Below are positions 7,856 to 61,210 of a stretch of DNA of 64,000 nucleotides, piece by piece (position 1 is the first letter of the stretch; the number at the start of each line of letters is the position of its first letter). Under the pieces are notes generated by a model. That model did no database searches. It saw nothing but the letters and a program-made list of their open reading frames with translations, and had not been told where the DNA came from. Made by a program: the position numbers and the translations under genes. The DNA comes from Haladaptatus paucihalophilus DX253 (GTDB taxonomy: Archaea; Halobacteriota; Halobacteria; Halobacteriales; Haladaptataceae): positions 2,381,734 to 2,445,733 of the forward strand of contig NZ_AQXI01000001.1 of assembly GCF_000376445.1 (NCBI RefSeq), in the 5' to 3' direction.

Positions 7856-8263
7856 ATGGGAACTGCCGAGCGAGGATTGGTCTCGTGGGTATCAGCGACC
7901 GTTGATTTCCTTCTGGCAGTGTTCGGGTTCATAATTGTGCTGTATCCGATGGTCTCGCTCGGAAACGCAGTTTTCGGGTCGCCGGCTTCGGCCTCGACAG
8001 TCGGCTTGGTTATCGGTGTGCTGGCGGTCGGTGGAGCGTATCCCATGGTTGCGGGCGATTGGTCGCTCGGACAGCTCGGTGAATACGTGTTCGTCCTTAC
8101 CGTCGCCACATTCGGGTGGGGACTCCTCGGGATGATAGTGATACTCGTCTCGGGGCTTTCGTTAGCCGGGAGTAACCCGGTTCCACGAGCGATAGTCTGG
8201 GTCGCGGCCTCTCTGACCGCCTATATCGTCGTCTACCGAACCCGGTTGACGGTTCTCGACTAA
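7856..8263 (+). CDS. Four-helix membrane protein, unknown function
   Basis: This is a 135-residue hydrophobic protein with four predicted membrane helices (about residues 12-40, 46-66, 75-100 and 108-128), a short cytoplasmic N-terminus and no catalytic motif. Base composition matches the core genome. It stands alone, convergent with the tRNA-Asp/endonuclease segment. I do not recognise a named family; it resembles the many small conserved membrane proteins of haloarchaea. Confidence 0.6.
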   Translation: MGTAERGLVSWVSATVDFLLAVFGFIIVLYPMVSLGNAVFGSPASASTVGLVIGVLAVGGAYPMVAGDWSLGQLGEYVFVLTVATFGWGLLGMIVILVSGLSLAGSNPVPRAIVWVAASLTAYIVVYRTRLTVLD

Positions 8264-8318
8264 CTCCGATTTGCAGGGTTCAAATCTTCTCGACCGATAG
8301 AAACTGAGACAGAGCAAT

Positions 8319-8434
8319 CGCTCGTGAATCGTTGTTTCGTTAGAAAGCGCCCGAGGCGGGATTTGAACCCGCGTCACAACCGTGACAGGGTTGTATGATG
8401 GGCCACTACACCACCCGGGCCTTCGACGCATCTT
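8319..8434. repeat. Left copy of 116-bp direct repeat containing tRNA-Asp
   Basis: This segment matches 9189-9304 at 115 of 116 positions; the only mismatch is at 8337/9207. It covers the whole tRNA-Asp gene plus 29 bases on its 3' side and 14 bases on its 5' side. Identity stops sharply at both edges, so the duplication is recent or kept uniform by gene conversion. The repeat period is 870 bp. Confidence 0.93.
8348..8420 (-). tRNA. tRNA-Asp (GTC), downstream copy
   Basis: This 73-base gene on the minus strand has acceptor stem GCCCGGG/CTCGGGC, anticodon loop CTGTCAC within a CAACC/GGTTG stem (anticodon GTC, Asp), and T-arm CGGGTTCAAATCCCG. The discriminator base is G, as expected for tRNA-Asp. 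CCA is not encoded. A TATA-like CTTAATAAG lies about 30 bases upstream. It is identical to the copy at 9218-9290. Confidence 0.97.
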
Positions 8435-8504
8435 CTTCTTTCCCCCGGACTTATTAAGGGGTGTCGATTTCGTCGTCCTTTGGTACCCGTTATCTCGGGT
8501 TCCG

Positions 8505-8969
8505 TTACGATCCACTTTTCGGAGGGATTTCTCCGTCGAACTCGTACTCTTCTGCCCAGTTGATCGACGGATGGTCTATTTTCCCTTCGAAGCGAAGTTC
8601 CATCTTTTGCTCGGTTGCCTCGTCGATCGCTATCCAATAGGTTTTCTTGTTTCCAGGGTACCGAACAACAAACGCATCTATCTCTCCATCATACGTGTTC
8701 TCGTGATAGTTCCCACCCTTTGTCGTTTGGGTGTGAGTGTTGAACCGCATCGTTTTCTTTTTGTTCTGCCATGCGGTTTTACATTGAACTCGATATAAAT
8801 CTCCCATATCGTCTATTATCAAATCGTATTTGTCGTTGTCACCGAACGGAATTGAAACGCTATATCCATAGGATATCATCTCGTGGATTATCTTCGCCTC
8901 TGTTTTATCACCTCTATCTTTCGTGTTACCTCTCTCTTCTGACATCCGTTGAAATAGACTCGATTCCAT
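8505..8969 (-). CDS. PD-(D/E)XK endonuclease-like protein (group I intron-associated type)
   Basis: This 154-residue protein has the motif layout of small PD-(D/E)XK nucleases: an early KTEAKIIHEMISYGYSV helix, then YDLIIDD (catalytic Asp) and YRVQCKTA (Q-x-K variant). The closest family I recognise is the 'group I intron-associated PD-(D/E)XK' proteins, including the tRNA-intron enzyme I-Ssp6803I. Codon use is strikingly A+T-rich against its neighbours, a sign of transfer. ATG 8969 has a TATA-like TAATATATC about 25-30 bases upstream, so a leaderless start is likely. It sits between two identical tRNA-Asp genes in the same orientation. No intron is visible in either tRNA. It is likely a selfish nuclease, though its DNA target is unknown. 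Confidence 0.78.
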   Translation of the reverse strand: MESSLFQRMSEERGNTKDRGDKTEAKIIHEMISYGYSVSIPFGDNDKYDLIIDDMGDLYRVQCKTAWQNKKKTMRFNTHTQTTKGGNYHENTYDGEIDAFVVRYPGNKKTYWIAIDEATEQKMELRFEGKIDHPSINWAEEYEFDGEIPPKSGS

Positions 8970-9050
8970 CTTATTGACTATTTCGGTGCGTGATATATTA
9001 CTGGATCTTAATTGTATGATTGACTCGGATCGCTAATCGGCATTCAGCCA

Positions 9051-9071
9051 AGAAACGCCCGAGACAGAATT
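9051..9071 (-). repeat. Possible decayed tRNA-Asp 3' end
   Basis: AGAAACGCCCGAGACAGAAT resembles the repeat edge AGAAAGCGCCCGAGGCGGGAT, with scattered changes and no continuing tRNA structure. It may be a relic of an earlier tRNA-Asp duplication inside the element. The match is short and could be chance. Confidence 0.3.
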
Positions 9072-9188
9072 CGGCTTCCATCGAGGTTGAGAGATGGACC
9101 CACCACACACGAACTATTGTTCTATCTGGTAGTGTTCAAGGCCGAATCCAAATTCCCGTTTGCACAAAGACGGAAATAGCGGGTGCAC

Positions 9189-9304
9189 CGCTCGTGAATC
9201 GTTGTTCCGTTAGAAAGCGCCCGAGGCGGGATTTGAACCCGCGTCACAACCGTGACAGGGTTGTATGATGGGCCACTACACCACCCGGGCCTTCGACGCA
9301 TCTT
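9189..9304. repeat. Right copy of 116-bp direct repeat containing tRNA-Asp
   Basis: This is the partner of 8319-8434, differing at one base. The 754 bp between the two copies carry only the endonuclease gene and the short tRNA-like relic, so one repeat plus spacer forms an 870-bp unit. Confidence 0.93.
9218..9290 (-). tRNA. tRNA-Asp (GTC), upstream copy
   Basis: This has the same 73-base sequence as 8348-8420 and anticodon GTC. Its promoter side (9305 onward) differs from that of the other copy but still has a TTAAG element about 35 bases upstream. In the direction of transcription it comes first, followed by the endonuclease gene and the second tRNA-Asp. Confidence 0.97.
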
Positions 9305-9579
9305 TTCCTTTCTGGCTTGTACTCTTAAGGCTTTCCAAAGCCGTCCCGTGTGGGGGTTCGTACCGAGGGATGCTAACACATCCCGGTTGCCCAAACCATT
9401 TATACCAGAACGAAGTAGATACAGGTGTTCAGTTGGGAACTTCCGTCCATTTGTACGGGGGTTCGGGATAGCCGAGCGTGTGCGAACCGACTTAGCAAGT
9501 CTTAAATGAGTGCTGCGTGTAATACCCTGTAGTATCTCGTGATAGCCATTTCTCCCGCTAGCCGGAAACTCGCGCACAC
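9305..9579 (+). promoter_or_regulatory. Leader/promoter region of the RNA polymerase operon
   Basis: A TATA-like CATTTATACC at 9397-9406 would start transcription near 9428 and give a leader of about 150 bases before rpoH. A second candidate, CTTAAATGAG, lies at 9501-9510. Both are sequence inferences. The region also holds the divergent tRNA-Asp promoter. No open frame is convincing here. Confidence 0.45.
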
Positions 9580-9807
9580 ATGGTAGACGTAAGCCAACAC
9601 AAAATGGTTCCGGAGCACTCAATCGTCGATTCGGACGAAATCGACGAGGTGCTCGCGGAATACGACATCAAGAGTACAGACCTGCCGAAAATCAAGCGGA
9701 CCGACCCCGCGCTGCCGGACGACGCAGAGCCGGGTGACGTCATCAAAATCGTCCGCAACTCCCGAACGACGGAGAACGCCGTCGTGTATCGACTCGTGGT
9801 GGAATAA
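9580..9807 (+). CDS. rpoH: DNA-directed RNA polymerase subunit H (Rpo5)
   Basis: This 75-residue protein matches archaeal Rpo5/RpoH, the equivalent of the C-terminal domain of eukaryotic Rpb5. It has [19 protein letters not shown] at the N-terminus and [20 protein letters not shown] before the closing VIKIVRNS...VVYRLVV strands. It contacts DNA entering the polymerase jaw. It is the first gene of the rpo operon and its TAA overlaps the next ATG by one base. Confidence 0.97.
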
Positions 9808-11363
9808 TGCAACAGGAAGATCGACGCACACTATCGAGGGAGTATTTCTCGAAAGAACGACTCGCGGAGCATCACTATCGCTCGTTTAACGCCTTCCTGA
9901 ATCGCGGCATGCAGGAAGTCGTAACCGAGAAGGGAATAATCGACACGGACATCGGTGACAAGGAGGGCGAAGAACCGGTGTTCGTCGAACTCGGCGACAT
10001 TCGCGTGGTCACCCCGCGCGTACGTGAGGCGGACGGAAGCGAAGAGCTCCTGTATCCACAGGAAGCGCGCCTCCGCAACATCACGTACGCCGCACCGGTT
10101 TTCATGGAGATGACCATCGTCAAAGGAGAGGGCGACGACAAGCGCGTCGTCGACTCCACCGAGACGAAAGTCGGTCGGATGCCGATCATGGTCGGCTCTG
10201 AGAAGTGTAACATCGCCAACTTCGACAAGGAGGACCTGGTGGAGATCGGTGAGGACCCCGCCGACCCCGGCGGCTACTTCATCGTCAACGGCTCGGAGCG
10301 CGTGCTGATGACCTCCGAGGACCTCGCCCCGAACAAGATTCTCGCCGAGTACGACACGAAGTACGGCGACGAGATTCAGGTCGCAAAGACGTTCAGCCAA
10401 CGCCGCGGCTACCGCGCGCTGGTTCTCGTCGAGCGCTCGCGCGACGGCCTGCTCGAAGTGTCGTTCCCGTCGGTGTCCGGACGCGTGAACTTCGTCACGC
10501 TCGTTCGCGCGCTGGGACTCGAATCCGACGAGGAGATCGTCCACCGCGTCTCCGACGACCCGGAGATCGTGAAGTTCATGCTCGAAAACCTGGAGGCCGC
10601 CGAAGTCCAGACCCAAGAGGAGGCCATCGAAACCCTCGGGAAGCGGGTCGCCTCCGGACAGGGCAAGAACTACCAGCTGAAGCGTGCGAACTACGTCATC
10701 GACCGCTATCTCCTGCCGCACCTCCACGAGGACGGTGTCGAGGAAGAGGAAGTGCGCATCAACAAGGCGTACTACCTCGCGCGGATGGCCGAGGCGTGTT
10801 TCGAACTCGCGCTGGGACGCCGCGACTCCGACGACAAGGACCACTACGCCAACAAGCGGCTGAAGGTCTCCGGCGACCTCATGAAGGACCTGTTCCGCAC
10901 GGCGTTGAACAAACTGGCGCGCGACGTGAAGTACCAGCTCGAACGCGCGAACATGCGCAACCGGCAGTTGTCCGTGAACACGGTGGTTCGATCCGACGTT
11001 CTCACCGAACGTCTCGAACACCCGATTGCGACCGGGAACTGGGTTGGTGGCCGTTCCGGCGTCTCGCAGTTGGTCGACCGGACGGACTTCATGGGTGTGC
11101 TGTCACACCTTCGCCGTCTCCGCAGTCCGCTGTCGCGGAGCCAGCCTCACTTCGAGGCCCGTGACCTGCACGCGACCCAGTGGGGTCGTATCTGCCCGTC
11201 CGAGACGCCTGAGGGACCGAACTGTGGTCTGGTGAAGAACTTCGCGCAGGCGATGGAGCTGAGCCAGAACATCGAGGACGAACAGGAACTCAAACAGGAA
11301 CTGTCGTCGATGGGAGTCGAGGGGATTCCCGGAATCGAGAGCATCGAAGGGAGCGCAGACTGA
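9807..11363 (+). CDS. rpoB2: DNA-directed RNA polymerase subunit B'' (Rpo2 N-terminal)
   Basis: This 518-residue protein corresponds to the N-terminal half of bacterial beta/eukaryotic Rpb2: protrusion, lobe and part of the fork. Segments [37 protein letters not shown] and [17 protein letters not shown] are family hallmarks. In halophiles rpoB is split; the rest is the next gene, joined through a TGATG overlap, giving tight coupling of the two halves. Confidence 0.98.
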
Positions 11364-27492: not shown

Positions 27493-27564
27493 GGGCTCGT
27501 AGATCAGTGGCAGATCGCTTCCTTCGCAAGGAAGAGGCCCCGGGTTCAAATCCCGGCGAGTCCA
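27493..27564 (+). tRNA. tRNA-Ala (CGC)
   Basis: This 72-base gene has acceptor stem GGGCTCG/CGAGTCC with the G3-U70 wobble pair that defines alanine identity, anticodon stem CTTCC/GGAAG with loop TTCGCAA (anticodon CGC), T-arm CGGGTTCAAATCCCG and discriminator A. It has no intron. It borders the A+T-rich accessory island. Confidence 0.97.
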
Positions 27565-27647
27565 CTTCTCTCACTCCACTTCGTTCCGTTCGATCAGTGG
27601 ACTCGCCGTAGTCCCCCTCGCTTCGCTCGCGGGACTCCCGGCGAGTC
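27551..27647. repeat. tRNA-Ala 3' end echoed twice downstream
   Basis: TCCCGGCGAGTC (27551-27562, inside the tRNA) recurs directly at 27636-27647. CGGCGAGTCCAC (27554-27565) recurs inverted at 27597-27608 as GTGGACTCGCCG. The second direct copy is part of a GTCCC...GGGAC hairpin. This may be a remnant of att-type recombination at the tRNA or simply a structured 3' trailer. Confidence 0.6.
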
Positions 27648-27952
27648 TATTCAACCATTTACGACGGTCGCATGCAGGATTGACGGCTGTCGTTGCCACT
27701 CCTGCTGGCTCCCTGTAAAAGGTTGATCAAAAGCACGCCGCTCCTCCGTCGGTCGTCGCTTGCCTCGCTCGCTTCGGAAGAGCTTCGCTCTTCCGTGCTC
27801 TCGTTCACGAGAACTTCGCTCGCGGAAGAAGGGGAAAAGGATGGACTCGCTATTCATGGTAAATCATCTATGTCATTGCTAGTGAGTCCACTGCTATGTT
27901 TTGTGAATACTTGATCAACAATTGTATTATCTCTGACCGCCGATGGTAGGTC
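27648..27952. repeat. Intergenic element copy B and hairpins
   Basis: The element at 27707-27747 (GGCTCCCTGTAAAAG then GATCAAAAGC and CCGCTCCTCC) matches copies at 17776 and 52901. A perfect hairpin CGGAAGAGC-TTC-GCTCTTCCG lies at 27775-27795. The remaining bases turn A+T-rich toward the island gene. No credible open frame is seen in this 305-base gap. Confidence 0.55.
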
Positions 27953-28780
27953 CTACAGATTTAGGTCCCGTTCAATCTTTCTCAGTATTGGAGACAGTCT
28001 CTGGTACATAGCTTCTGCTTGAGCACCATTTAGTTCGTTGTTAGGTACATCTGGCTTATCCCATTTGATTTCCTTAGTTCCAGATTGAAGAATGTTCGTC
28101 GTGAAGTCATCTCCCTTCTTACCACGGAGCGCCAGTATCTCTGTTTTATTGGCTGCCTCGTCAAACATTCCTAAACCCTTCAAATTCTTACTACCACGGA
28201 ATTCTTGACTTGACACGGTTTCGGCAAGCTCATTTAGAGCTTTTCCAAACTCGTCACCTTCCTCTAATTCTTCGTCAGAAGCGCCGAACCTGAACAATGT
28301 AATATCGTCCCACTTTTCATAGAACTCAAACATTGTCCTTTGTGAAAATGCAATTTCTGGCTGAGATTTTATTTCCGTACCAGTTCTTTTCCCGATATAC
28401 TGAGGAATCCATGCTTTTGCCAGTCCTTGTTGACTCTCATACGCGTATAATCCATTATCAAAATAAAACACACGCGGTCGAACTGGCGATCTGTCAGATG
28501 TTGGGACTAGCTCATCACTATCTTCTTGCCTCTCTACCCGACTCCTCTCTTTTTCCGAGACATAGGTGAAGTAACAGAAGTCGCGTTCTCCACGCCCATT
28601 GCTAAGGTAGGAATTCATTCCCTTTTCGTCCAATGATATCGGGTCTTCTCCTTCTACAACAACCTTTGTACTTCTCTCTCGAAACTGGTTGTCTATATTA
28701 TTATGGAGAACCTCTGGACTAGGGAGATTTGCGTTATCAACTTCAATACGTCCGAATCTGAACCGTGCTGTTTCTGCCAT
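27953..28780 (-). CDS. A+T-rich island protein, unrecognised
   Basis: This 275-residue soluble, acidic protein begins MAETARFRFGRIEVDNANLP. A middle part, FCYFTYVSEKERSRVERQ and VFYFDNGLYAYESQQGLAKA, reads like alternating strands and helices; the C-terminal part is helical. I recognise no family motif and no catalytic residues. The DNA is clearly more A+T-rich than all core neighbours and shows different codon choice, signs of recent transfer. A TATA-like ATATATACT sits about 25 bases upstream of the ATG (leaderless). It is next to tRNA-Ala and followed upstream by two regulator genes. A defence, phage or plasmid function is possible but not shown. Confidence 0.7.
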   Translation of the reverse strand: MAETARFRFGRIEVDNANLPSPEVLHNNIDNQFRERSTKVVVEGEDPISLDEKGMNSYLSNGRGERDFCYFTYVSEKERSRVERQEDSDELVPTSDRSPVRPRVFYFDNGLYAYESQQGLAKAWIPQYIGKRTGTEIKSQPEIAFSQRTMFEFYEKWDDITLFRFGASDEELEEGDEFGKALNELAETVSSQEFRGSKNLKGLGMFDEAANKTEILALRGKKGDDFTTNILQSGTKEIKWDKPDVPNNELNGAQAEAMYQRLSPILRKIERDLNL

Positions 28781-28956
28781 TGGTTCGTCAAGTATATATG
28801 ATATCTAATGACTTAAATGTTTACACAGCAGAGTGAAAGTGAAATCGAAAGGAGGGATACGGGTGAGAAAATCCAAATGAATATGTGTTTTATTGATACC
28901 TGCAGTATCCATATCAGCAGCTTCTCAATCAAATTTTATTCTCTGTCGTGTAGTTT

Positions 28957-29214
28957 CTAGTCTTTCTCTAATTCACTCGCATCCAACTCGCTAGCGAGAT
29001 ACTGCTCCCCTGTCTCCGAAATTTCGTATTTTCCTCGCTCAACTCGGACTACGAGACCGTATTCTACCAATTCGTTCAAGCGTCGGTTCACACCTTCACG
29101 TCTCAAATCGAGATTGAACGCGATGATAGAGGGAGAAAGGATGATACCCGCGGATTGTAGCAACTCCAGAACACAGTCGTCCATCGGAGTCATCCACTCT
29201 GCCCGCAGGCGCAT
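28957..29214 (-). CDS. Small winged-helix regulator (phiH1-repressor-like) 2
   Basis: This 85-residue winged-helix DNA-binding protein has N-terminal EWMTPMDDCVLELLQSAG, recognition region LRREGVNRRLNELVEYGLV, wing VRVERGKYEISETGEQYLAS and an acidic tail. The layout matches small haloviral/plasmid repressor-like regulators common in haloarchaea. It is a clear paralogue of the gene 5 bases upstream and forms an operon with it. Confidence 0.78.
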   Translation of the reverse strand: MRLRAEWMTPMDDCVLELLQSAGIILSPSIIAFNLDLRREGVNRRLNELVEYGLVVRVERGKYEISETGEQYLASELDASELEKD

Positions 29215-29219
29215 GGTAA

Positions 29220-29501
29220 CTACTTCTCGTCTCGCTCCAAGTCACTCGCCGCAAGCTCACCAGCAAGGTACTGCTTGCCTTTCTCGGTGATACAGTAGAT
29301 CCCCCTGTCCTCGTCGTAGTACTCGACCAGCCCTGCCGAATGAAGTTCACGGAGGCGACTCCGTATGTGGGAGATTTGATAATCGATGTTGGCCTGAACC
29401 ACTGCCGGATTCGCGTTGATCGGCTTGTTACCCTCGTTTAGTAGAAACTCCAAAATAACGTTGTCTGCCCGCGTCATCCATTCTACCCGAGGGCGTCGCA
29501 T
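29220..29501 (-). CDS. Small winged-helix regulator (phiH1-repressor-like) 1
   Basis: This 93-residue paralogue of the next gene has EWMTRADNVILEFLLNEGN, IRSRLRELHSAGLVEYYDED and GIYCITEKGKQYLAGELAASDL. It has the usual winged-helix arrangement, with the wing at the YYDEDRGIYC hairpin. Such regulators often mark integrated virus or plasmid remnants. It is the first gene of the pair and has an A+T-rich upstream region (29502-29600) that likely holds the promoter. Its target genes are unknown. Confidence 0.78.
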   Translation of the reverse strand: MRRPRVEWMTRADNVILEFLLNEGNKPINANPAVVQANIDYQISHIRSRLRELHSAGLVEYYDEDRGIYCITEKGKQYLAGELAASDLERDEK

Positions 29502-29733
29502 CCGGTTGTAACCAAACCAATTCGTATGTTAATTTGATTGATTCCAATTTCTCACCATCTCTATCGAGACACTGAGTGTATGGTTTGATACGCTAGTGTT
29601 AAGTGACTGCTCGAAGATGTCATCATACGGAAGTCAATGACGGACTACCTCATCGCCAACCCAGCCCCATTTTGGCGAGTCGAAGCGTCAGGAATCGAGT
29701 CCGTGTGGCTTCCGTACACGCCTGTGAGAAACT

Positions 29734-29907
29734 ATGTGCTCCGAGAATTCGTCGGACGAGAATTCGGAATCCGTGTCGGTCCCCGACTGTCCCGTCTGTG
29801 GCGCGCCCGTTCTGCTGGTCGTGACGCGCGGGCCGGACACCCACGAGTGTCGGCCCTGTGGCTGTTCGGTCGGGTTGGAAACCGCGCGTGATTTCTTCGA
29901 GCGGTGA
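29734..29907 (+). CDS. 57-residue zinc-ribbon mini-protein
   Basis: This small plus-strand gene starts MCSENSSDENSESVSVPD and contains CPVCGAPVLLVV, then ECRPCGCSVGLETARDFFER. Two Cys pairs 19 residues apart make a rubredoxin-like zinc ribbon with an acidic, Ser-rich leader. It belongs to the abundant haloarchaeal zinc-finger mini-proteins. An internal 9-base direct repeat, GAGAATTCG, encodes part of the leader. It is next to the accessory island but has core-like composition. Function unknown. Confidence 0.7.
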   Translation: MCSENSSDENSESVSVPDCPVCGAPVLLVVTRGPDTHECRPCGCSVGLETARDFFER

Positions 29908-30338
29908 GAAAATCCCTGCCTCTCGCGAGATTTTCGAATGATTCGCACGTCCCCCCGTTCACCGACGTGTCGGGGAGTTGTTTTTCGTCCGTCAATTTCC
30001 TCCGGGCGGACCACCGTTTCACGGCGGATTCCGGCGGTACGACCGGTTTACGATGGTGATTCGCCCACATCGCCCGATTCTGTTCTCCTAACTGTTTCAC
30101 CGAGTTCGCGCCCGTCGCACCCCGCTTAGCCGGGATATAATAAAGCCGATAGCGGTATTCGTGTGAAATACGCCCGAAGCCCGGGTGTACTCTCAGGCAA
30201 GCGTTCGACGGTGCCGGAGGCGCTGGTGGCGAGCTGGCCTCTCGCCGTGTTTCGGCCATGCCTCCCACGAAAGTTTGTCATCTCGAACGCCTGCCGACTT
30301 TTTCAGGACCGAAACCGAGTACCGAGGTTACCAGAACA
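29908..30338. other. 431-base intergenic region
   Basis: This lies between the zinc-ribbon gene and the Lrp-type regulator. A TATA-like GGATATAATAAAG at about 30132-30144 could start a transcript with a leader of nearly 200 bases for the regulator. I see no convincing small gene on either strand; a long minus-strand open frame here has no upstream signal and unusual composition. Confidence 0.45.
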
Positions 30339-60362: not shown

Positions 60363-61076
60363 TCACGCGTCGGTGAGATACCGCTCGACCGACCAGCCCC
60401 ACACGCCTCGGTCGAGCCAGTGGACGCCCCACCACGTGTAGCCGCCTTTGTCCGTCGGACCGTTCATGATTTCGCCGACCTCGCCGGGTGAGATGGTTGC
60501 GACGATTGGCTGACCGGTTCCCGGCTGCTCCCGCGTGTTCAGATCGACCGTCGGCGTTACTCGGTCGCCATCGACGAATTTGTCACCGCCACTGCCGCCG
60601 CCGTAGGTGTCGCGGTAGTACGCCGCGGCGTCCTTCACGTCGCTGACGTACGACCAGCTGTGGTTGTAGGCGTAGAGCGCGCTGTCCCAGTCGCCGGGCG
60701 CGCCGCTGTCGGTCAGGTAGTAGGCGGCGGCCGGAATCGCGTCCTGATAGTCACAGATGTCGGCCACGCCGTCGCCGTTCCCGTCGATGCCGTAGTAGTC
60801 CCACGTCGAGGGCATGAACTGCATCGGGCCTTTCGCCCCGGCGGACGAGGTGTCACATCCCGCCTCGTACTGGCCGTGTTGGGTCTCGATCCAGCCGACG
60901 CCAGCGAGATACGTCCAGTCGATTCCGTAGTCGCTTCCCGTCTGCTGGTACTCGGTCAGATAGTTCGACGGGATGGAACCGGGCGTCGCCGCCGCGGACC
61001 CCGAGAGGCCGCTAATGGTCACCGCCGCCGTTCCCGTCGCACCGACTTTCTTTAGTATGTTGCGTCTGGATGGCAT
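60363..61076 (-). CDS. Exported MltB-type lytic transglycosylase-like protein with SH3-like domain
   Basis: This 237-residue protein has a twin-arginine signal (PSRRNILKKVGATGTAAVTI), then an SLT/MltB-like domain: AGVGWIETQHGQYEAGCDTS with the catalytic Glu at residue 64, then AGAKGPMQFMPSTWDYYGID, DGNGDGVADICDYQDAIPAAAYYL and YNHSWSYVSDV. A C-terminal SH3b-like domain (VDLNTREQPGTGQPIVATI ... WWGVHWLDRGVWGWSVERYL) follows. Bacterial relatives cut peptidoglycan, which halophiles lack. It was probably acquired from bacteria; use against bacterial neighbours is inference. ATG 61076 is preferred to a TTG six bases upstream. Confidence 0.88.
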   Translation of the reverse strand: MPSRRNILKKVGATGTAAVTISGLSGSAAATPGSIPSNYLTEYQQTGSDYGIDWTYLAGVGWIETQHGQYEAGCDTSSAGAKGPMQFMPSTWDYYGIDGNGDGVADICDYQDAIPAAAYYLTDSGAPGDWDSALYAYNHSWSYVSDVKDAAAYYRDTYGGGSGGDKFVDGDRVTPTVDLNTREQPGTGQPIVATISPGEVGEIMNGPTDKGGYTWWGVHWLDRGVWGWSVERYLTDA

Positions 61077-61210
61077 CTGCAATTATCTGGCGAGTCTACA
61101 GAGAAATATATTTTTCTCCAAATTCCAGAAATAAAATGGCCAGGACGGAGTATCCGACCGTCCTCGGCGGTGCTTCCGGCCGGACAAAAGCGGGCGAATC
61201 GGGCGCGCCT

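Follow-up and report, generated by a model that had tools for sequence, protein, structure and literature searches.

Archaeal peptidoglycan hydrolases have been described before. Strock et al. (PMC12352652, 2025) reported two secreted haloarchaeal hydrolases, Woldo (M23) and Danwoldo (glucosaminidase) of Halogranum salarium B-1, that kill a halophilic bacterium; a sequence-only reading of the DNA studied here had pointed to such reports. That work left undecided whether the enzymes serve competition, predation or scavenging, and found a peptide uptake pathway enriched in genomes with such hydrolases. Its definition of hydrolases demanded a Pfam binding domain, and neither Haladaptatus nor any SH3 enzyme or haloarchaeal transglycosylase is named in its main text. 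A second related system is the muropeptide rescue of Bacillus subtilis, where amiE, nagZ and ybbC are adjacent in the cluster murQ-murR-murP-amiE-nagZ-ybbC (PMC5061867). In a 2011 survey of haloarchaea a GH3 N-acetylhexosaminidase was noted in the context of chitin. We found no report in the open-access literature of archaeal AnmK, NamZ or muropeptide use, nor of a hydrolase set with a shared SH3 domain or a catabolic locus of the type described below. Within this literature, archaeal peptidoglycan hydrolases are already known, while three things appear to be new: a lytic transglycosylase (LT) among them, a set with a shared domain, and the catabolic locus.

The LT gene lies in a stretch of 64,000 nucleotides of the Haladaptatus paucihalophilus DX253 genome that was analyzed as a whole (the window). 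Like Woldo and Danwoldo, the Haladaptatus set consists of predicted Tat-secreted two-domain peptidoglycan hydrolases, with several catalytic types and one kind of binding domain per genome. However, Woldo and Danwoldo carry tandem PG_binding_1 domains whereas the Haladaptatus enzymes carry an SH3-like domain, and the Haladaptatus set includes an amidase and a lytic transglycosylase at a stable chromosomal site. Furthermore, a muropeptide-type catabolic locus is present in the Haladaptatus genome. The M23 partner of the LT scored 195 bits against an NCBIfam peptidoglycan hydrolase model whose name (HSB1) suggests Halogranum, which is under the cut-off of 500. The features of the LT gene are as follows:

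60363..61076, minus strand: LT gene, 237 amino acids plus stop, SH3-like domain at the C-terminus (translation, Pfam, orthologue alignment)
60984..61076, minus strand: Tat-type signal peptide, approximately residues 1–31, MPSRRNILKK...AAAT (TIGR01409 above cut-off, RR invariant in 16 orthologues)
60597..60980, minus strand: catalytic transglycosylase domain, residues 33–160 (Pfam SLT_2/SLT, model pLDDT ∼80–97 for most of it, PDB fold matches)
60885..60887, minus strand: codon of the candidate catalytic Glu64 (invariant in both alignments)
60369..60578, minus strand: SH3-like domain, residues 167–236, also found in an amidase and an M23 peptidase encoded on another contig (paralogue comparison, fold; presumed wall binding)
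61104..61115, minus strand: TATA-like box 5′ of the LT start, putative promoter (sequence; similar AAAAATATAT element in orthologues)

The sequence-only reading had proposed an exported lytic transglycosylase at 60363–61076, and these coordinates are exact. The reading frame runs on the minus strand from ATG to stop over 237 residues; a plus-strand reading was ruled out by two stops. A Tat signal is followed by the transglycosylase domain, a short Gly-rich linker and the SH3-like domain, and an AT-rich element similar to AAAAATATAT is found at about equal distance from the LT start across the orthologues compared. Pfam yielded matches to SLT_2 (7e-12, 45.6 bits, cut-off 24.3) and SLT (8e-7, 29.1 bits, cut-off 21.3); as both are above cut-off, the match is not due to chance. 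Glu64, which had been named as the catalytic residue, lies in the segment GWIETQHG and is unchanged in 16 haloarchaeal orthologues as well as in a 37-sequence alignment with 24 actinobacterial members, so the close homologues have kept the residue whose loss would have told against the proposed activity. A G-P-M-Q-F motif is also conserved in the LT family alignments. The proposed twin-arginine signal is likewise borne out: the motif SRRNILK is present, TIGR01409 (TAT_signal_seq) scores 18.3 bits with a cut-off of 16.7, and the RR pair is invariant in the 16 orthologues. Beyond the signal the protein is strongly acidic (29 D/E versus 9 K/R), which fits a protein that functions in brine. Taken from its sequence, the gene most likely encodes a Tat-exported lytic transglycosylase, for which formation of 1,6-anhydroMurNAc is predicted.

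A first structure model of the LT, based on haloarchaeal sequences alone, was poor (pLDDT 63); a second model with bacterial relatives added reached a pLDDT of 76 with a good catalytic domain. The model and its PDB matches, which have modest TM-scores, give the catalytic domain a lysozyme-like fold. With the whole protein as query, the top matches were mostly lytic transglycosylases (Slt35/MltB, SltB, Slt70 and MltF, again at modest TM-scores), and a phage T7 core protein was also among the best. The C-terminus matched SH3 folds in the PDB and is a beta-barrel in both predicted models. Its paralogues match Pfam SH3_3, although the Pfam search of the LT itself gave no binding-domain match for this region; the SH3-like domain seen in the earlier reading is thus upheld by fold and by paralogues. 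The label ‘MltB-like’ holds in part. The LT shares the SLT_2 core motif and the lysozyme-like fold with MltB/Slt35, but it is shorter, aligns over only ∼60 residues and reaches 31–37 bits with MltB models whose cut-offs are 248–449, which rules out membership in that family. Its nearest relatives are Gram-positive SLT transglycosylases (Actinomycetota, Bacillota plasmids) that have the same Glu and GPMQF motif and whose catalytic domains are 50–57% identical to that of the LT. However, these bacterial relatives do not carry the SH3 domain of the LT, and for most of the closest ones on plasmids the annotation combines LT with NlpC/P60 or M23.

Identities of ∼50–57% in the catalytic domain are found with many Actinomycetota enzymes, and the matches listed span the catalytic part and seldom extend far past it. 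An enzyme on a plasmid of a fish-sauce Virgibacillus is 53% identical over the same domain. In a tree whose bootstrap is not fully settled, the haloarchaeal LTs form one clade (98/98) amid bacterial relatives, consistent with a single transfer from Gram-positive bacteria. A phage origin was ruled out, as neither the whole LT nor its SH3 domain had a match in 50,697 phage records; among 72,556 plasmid records the SH3 domain matched only one, of Halocatena. The LT is present at full length in 8 of 9 Haladaptatus genomes, in 4 of 18 genomes of the sister genus that includes Halorussus, in Halocatena and in one further genome; in an even sample of haloarchaea it occurs in 7 of 391 genomes. The protein is 93% identical to its relative in Haladaptatus sp. 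DYF46. Five other Haladaptatus records share the gene order GatB-LT-MATE-response regulator-histidine kinase, and GatB, LT and MATE are retained in two Halorussus genomes. This synteny indicates that the LT is an inherited chromosomal gene in this family and rules out a recent mobile island.

Several other features were observed in the window. A fluoride riboswitch aptamer lies at 2106–2174 on the plus strand (47.1 bits, cut-off 34). Two tRNA-Asp(gtc) genes ∼870 bases apart are found at 8347–9290 on the minus strand, in a region of lower GC content (0.515 in 8001–10000). Directly after a tRNA-Ala(cgc) gene, a low-GC patch at 27493–29500 (0.476 in 28001–30000) holds a 275-aa and a regulator-like 93-aa open reading frame and looks like a small island.

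A search of the genome with the LT protein yielded two further genes via the SH3 domain, which adjoin each other on a 317-kb contig and were identified by genome search and domain match:

L007:9182-10045, plus strand: Tat amidase_2 protein with SH3 domain
L007:10148-10918, minus strand: Tat M23 peptidase with the SH3 domain at its N-terminus

Their SH3 domains are 90% (amidase) and 81% (M23) identical to that of the LT. Six of the nine Haladaptatus genomes contain LT, amidase and M23 peptidase, each bearing this domain. In Halocatena marina the LT, M23 and amidase genes stand in a row (L083), in genome G230 the row is GH73, M23 and amidase with a GH73 glucosaminidase in place of the LT (L086), and in Halocatena salina and pleomorpha the LT adjoins M23 (L084, L085). 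GH73, present in relatives, was not found in the genome of the window itself. The SH3 domains that share 55% or more identity with that of the LT number 57, and every one is part of a protein that also has an LT, GH73, amidase or M23 domain. The amidase His, His and Asp/Cys residues and the M23 HxxxD and HxH motifs, which we take to form the metal sites, are kept almost throughout the alignments, apart from a few gaps or substitutions in divergent members. Judged by their catalytic families, LT, amidase and M23 peptidase together would cut three kinds of murein bond. Two further architectures were also observed: genome G342 encodes a 397-aa LT-SH3-M23 fusion (L088:5503-6696), in which two wall-cutting enzymes surround a single SH3 domain, and G204 encodes an 855-aa protein (L087:6699-9266) composed of a DUF900 alpha/beta-hydrolase-like part, an amidase and four SH3 domains, which could act on both lipid and wall.

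Within one Haladaptatus genome the SH3 domains of LT and amidase are 90–97% identical. In Halocatena and G230 the nearest relative of an SH3 domain belongs to another enzyme encoded in that genome, whereas in Haladaptatus it is usually found on the same enzyme in a sister species (13 versus 26 cases). The simplest reading is that the domain has been swapped or homogenized so that the enzymes have a common target, but homogenization among the enzymes, as far as these patterns suggest it, is supported only in part.

The catabolic locus is encoded on another contig of the genome:

L144:99-19856 (C2:192000-211900 on the 492-kb contig): catabolic locus, conserved across haloarchaeal families, outside the window

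Its genes code for a Tat GH18, a creatininase-like protein, GH3, NamZ, a 391-aa protein, a beta-lactamase-fold protein and HAD, followed by AnmK, SDR, SBP_bac_5, DppB, DppC, DppD, DppF and MR_MLE. The order is the same in three other Haladaptatus genomes, and the locus is found partly rearranged in other haloarchaeal families. NagZ-type GH3, NamZ and an AnmK-family kinase thus occur together in one locus. The GH3 passes the PRK05337 N-acetylhexosaminidase (NagZ-type) model and has the loop KHFPGHGDTAVDSH (KH-PGHG-DSH). NamZ is the exo-N-acetylmuramidase family; 1,6-anhydroMurNAc is the characteristic product of a lytic transglycosylase, and AnmK is its kinase family. AnmK is above the Pfam cut-off in all nine Haladaptatus genomes, although the gene is seemingly broken or partial in two. 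A signal peptide is present on the GH18 and absent from the trimming enzymes of the locus. As AmiE has a beta-lactamase fold and YbbC is NamZ, the archaeal locus resembles the B. subtilis cluster in grouping a NagZ-type GH3, NamZ and a beta-lactamase-fold protein. What sets it apart is its AnmK-family kinase and its importer of the peptide ABC type; murQ and murP were not found in the archaeon, whose own cells are without murein. For the MR_MLE protein beside the importer, a role as L-Ala-D/L-Glu epimerase was weighed; NCBIfam, however, favors other members of the enolase superfamily.

No MurQ was found above cut-off in the nine Haladaptatus genomes; weaker matches were discounted as they lie in open frames mostly of at least 600 aa and probably represent SIS domains from other enzymes. 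Either the lactyl ether is cut by an unfamiliar protein encoded in the locus, or the sugar is used otherwise. The 391-aa protein (L144:5352-6524, minus strand) might supply the missing lactyl-ether or sugar step; it has no match in Pfam or NCBIfam and occurs in all the AnmK/NamZ loci examined.

Taking the secreted LT, its partners and the catabolic locus together, we consider it probable that the archaeon uses bacterial walls as food, likely harming or killing the bacteria in doing so. The genes, their domains and conserved active sites, the shared SH3 domain, the syntenic locus and the co-occurrence of its parts are read from the sequence; from these we infer export, cutting, wall targeting, import, trimming and nutrient use. 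The SH3-like domain of the LT would bind bacterial peptidoglycan, and the LT would cut MurNAc-GlcNAc bonds, leaving 1,6-anhydroMurNAc ends. Alongside it, the secreted amidase would cut the MurNAc-L-Ala bond and the secreted M23 endopeptidase peptide bonds. The peptide-type ABC importer would then take up wall fragments, which the NagZ-type GH3, NamZ and the beta-lactamase-fold protein, perhaps acting like AmiE, would trim in the cytoplasm before the AnmK-family kinase would phosphorylate anhydroMurNAc.

The distribution of these genes bears on whether cutting and catabolism belong together. AnmK is found in 15 and NamZ in 16 of 391 haloarchaeal genomes, and all 15 are among the 16; this complete co-occurrence argues for a muramic acid substrate of the kinase. 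In sequence, however, the kinase is nearer to fungal levoglucosan kinase than to solved AnmKs, which makes anhydroMurNAc a candidate substrate only. Genomes with AnmK have SH3-type hydrolases more often than the others do (odds ratio 10, p = 6e-5), and the enrichment persists in counts by genus (p = 0.0017), which handle kinship only coarsely. Tat amidases were found in or beside the catabolic locus in two genomes, G027 (L154) and G099 (L161), and a Tat GH73-SH3 enzyme in Halocatena marina (L152). However, 4 of the 7 LT genomes of the class sample are without AnmK and 7 of the 15 AnmK genomes are without SH3-type hydrolases, so that the two parts are separable. In the genome studied here, three separate contigs carry the LT, the amidase/M23 pair and the catabolic locus, respectively. 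The enzymes could be weapons only, with which LT and partners lyse competing halophilic Gram-positive bacteria while the locus serves another use or clears up. Two secreted haloarchaeal hydrolases of related design do kill Halalkalibacterium halodurans (PMC12352652), the LT occurs without AnmK in G013, G342, G357 and G380, and the amidase/M23 pair is on the separate 317-kb contig. Nevertheless we regard this explanation as unlikely, given that the LT is stably inherited at one chromosomal site in the genus, unlike the patchy pattern reported for such weapons, that all nine Haladaptatus genomes have AnmK, and that three genomes have secreted hydrolases within or next to the catabolic locus.

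The locus might instead serve chitin or levoglucosan-type anhydrosugars, with GH18 and GH3 releasing GlcNAc, the kinase acting as a levoglucosan kinase and the wall hydrolases being unrelated. The Tat GH18 within the locus and the lack of a MurQ above cut-off in nine Haladaptatus genomes would fit, as would the nearest solved structure of the kinase, a levoglucosan kinase (281 bits for the fungal enzyme, ∼201 bits for solved AnmKs). However, the kinase passes the AnmK equivalog model, NamZ is present in all 15 genomes that have the kinase, three genomes have murein amidase or GH73 genes within or next to the locus, and GH18 was not found in most other locus copies examined, which makes this explanation quite improbable; GH18 and GH3 of the locus could still serve chitin as well. 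It is most improbable that the SH3 domain binds an archaeal envelope, the enzymes remodeling its glycans or serving antagonism among archaea: more distant SH3 relatives on a GH18 and an alpha/beta hydrolase, and the lack of a bacterial SH3 of this kind in plasmid or phage records, mean that the domain need not bind murein, but the close SH3 clade comprises four unrelated murein-type catalytic families, the LT occurs in just 7 of 391 haloarchaeal genomes, and haloarchaea, as is well established, are without murein.

Feeding on bacterial walls remains our preferred explanation. The sequence-only reading had offered a weapon against bacteria or a means to feed on them, which was the right pair of options: the weapon half stands by analogy with the hydrolases of PMC12352652, whereas the feeding half has gained genomic support from the SH3 partner hydrolases and the conserved muropeptide-type locus. 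More tentatively, and with somewhat less confidence than an even chance, we suggest a complete wall-eating system in an archaeal lineage that, to our knowledge, has no murein of its own, comprising enzymes for three bonds, one lineage-specific targeting domain, an ABC importer and a MurQ-free anhydroMurNAc pathway. The shared SH3 domain provides a probe for further enzymes that surveys based on Pfam binding domains may miss. Haladaptatus, with its matched set of predicted enzymes against three types of bond and a putative pathway for the LT product, offers a concrete case for the question of whether such archaea kill or eat. If our explanation is true, this archaeon feeds on a polymer not of its own making, across the boundary between archaea and bacteria.
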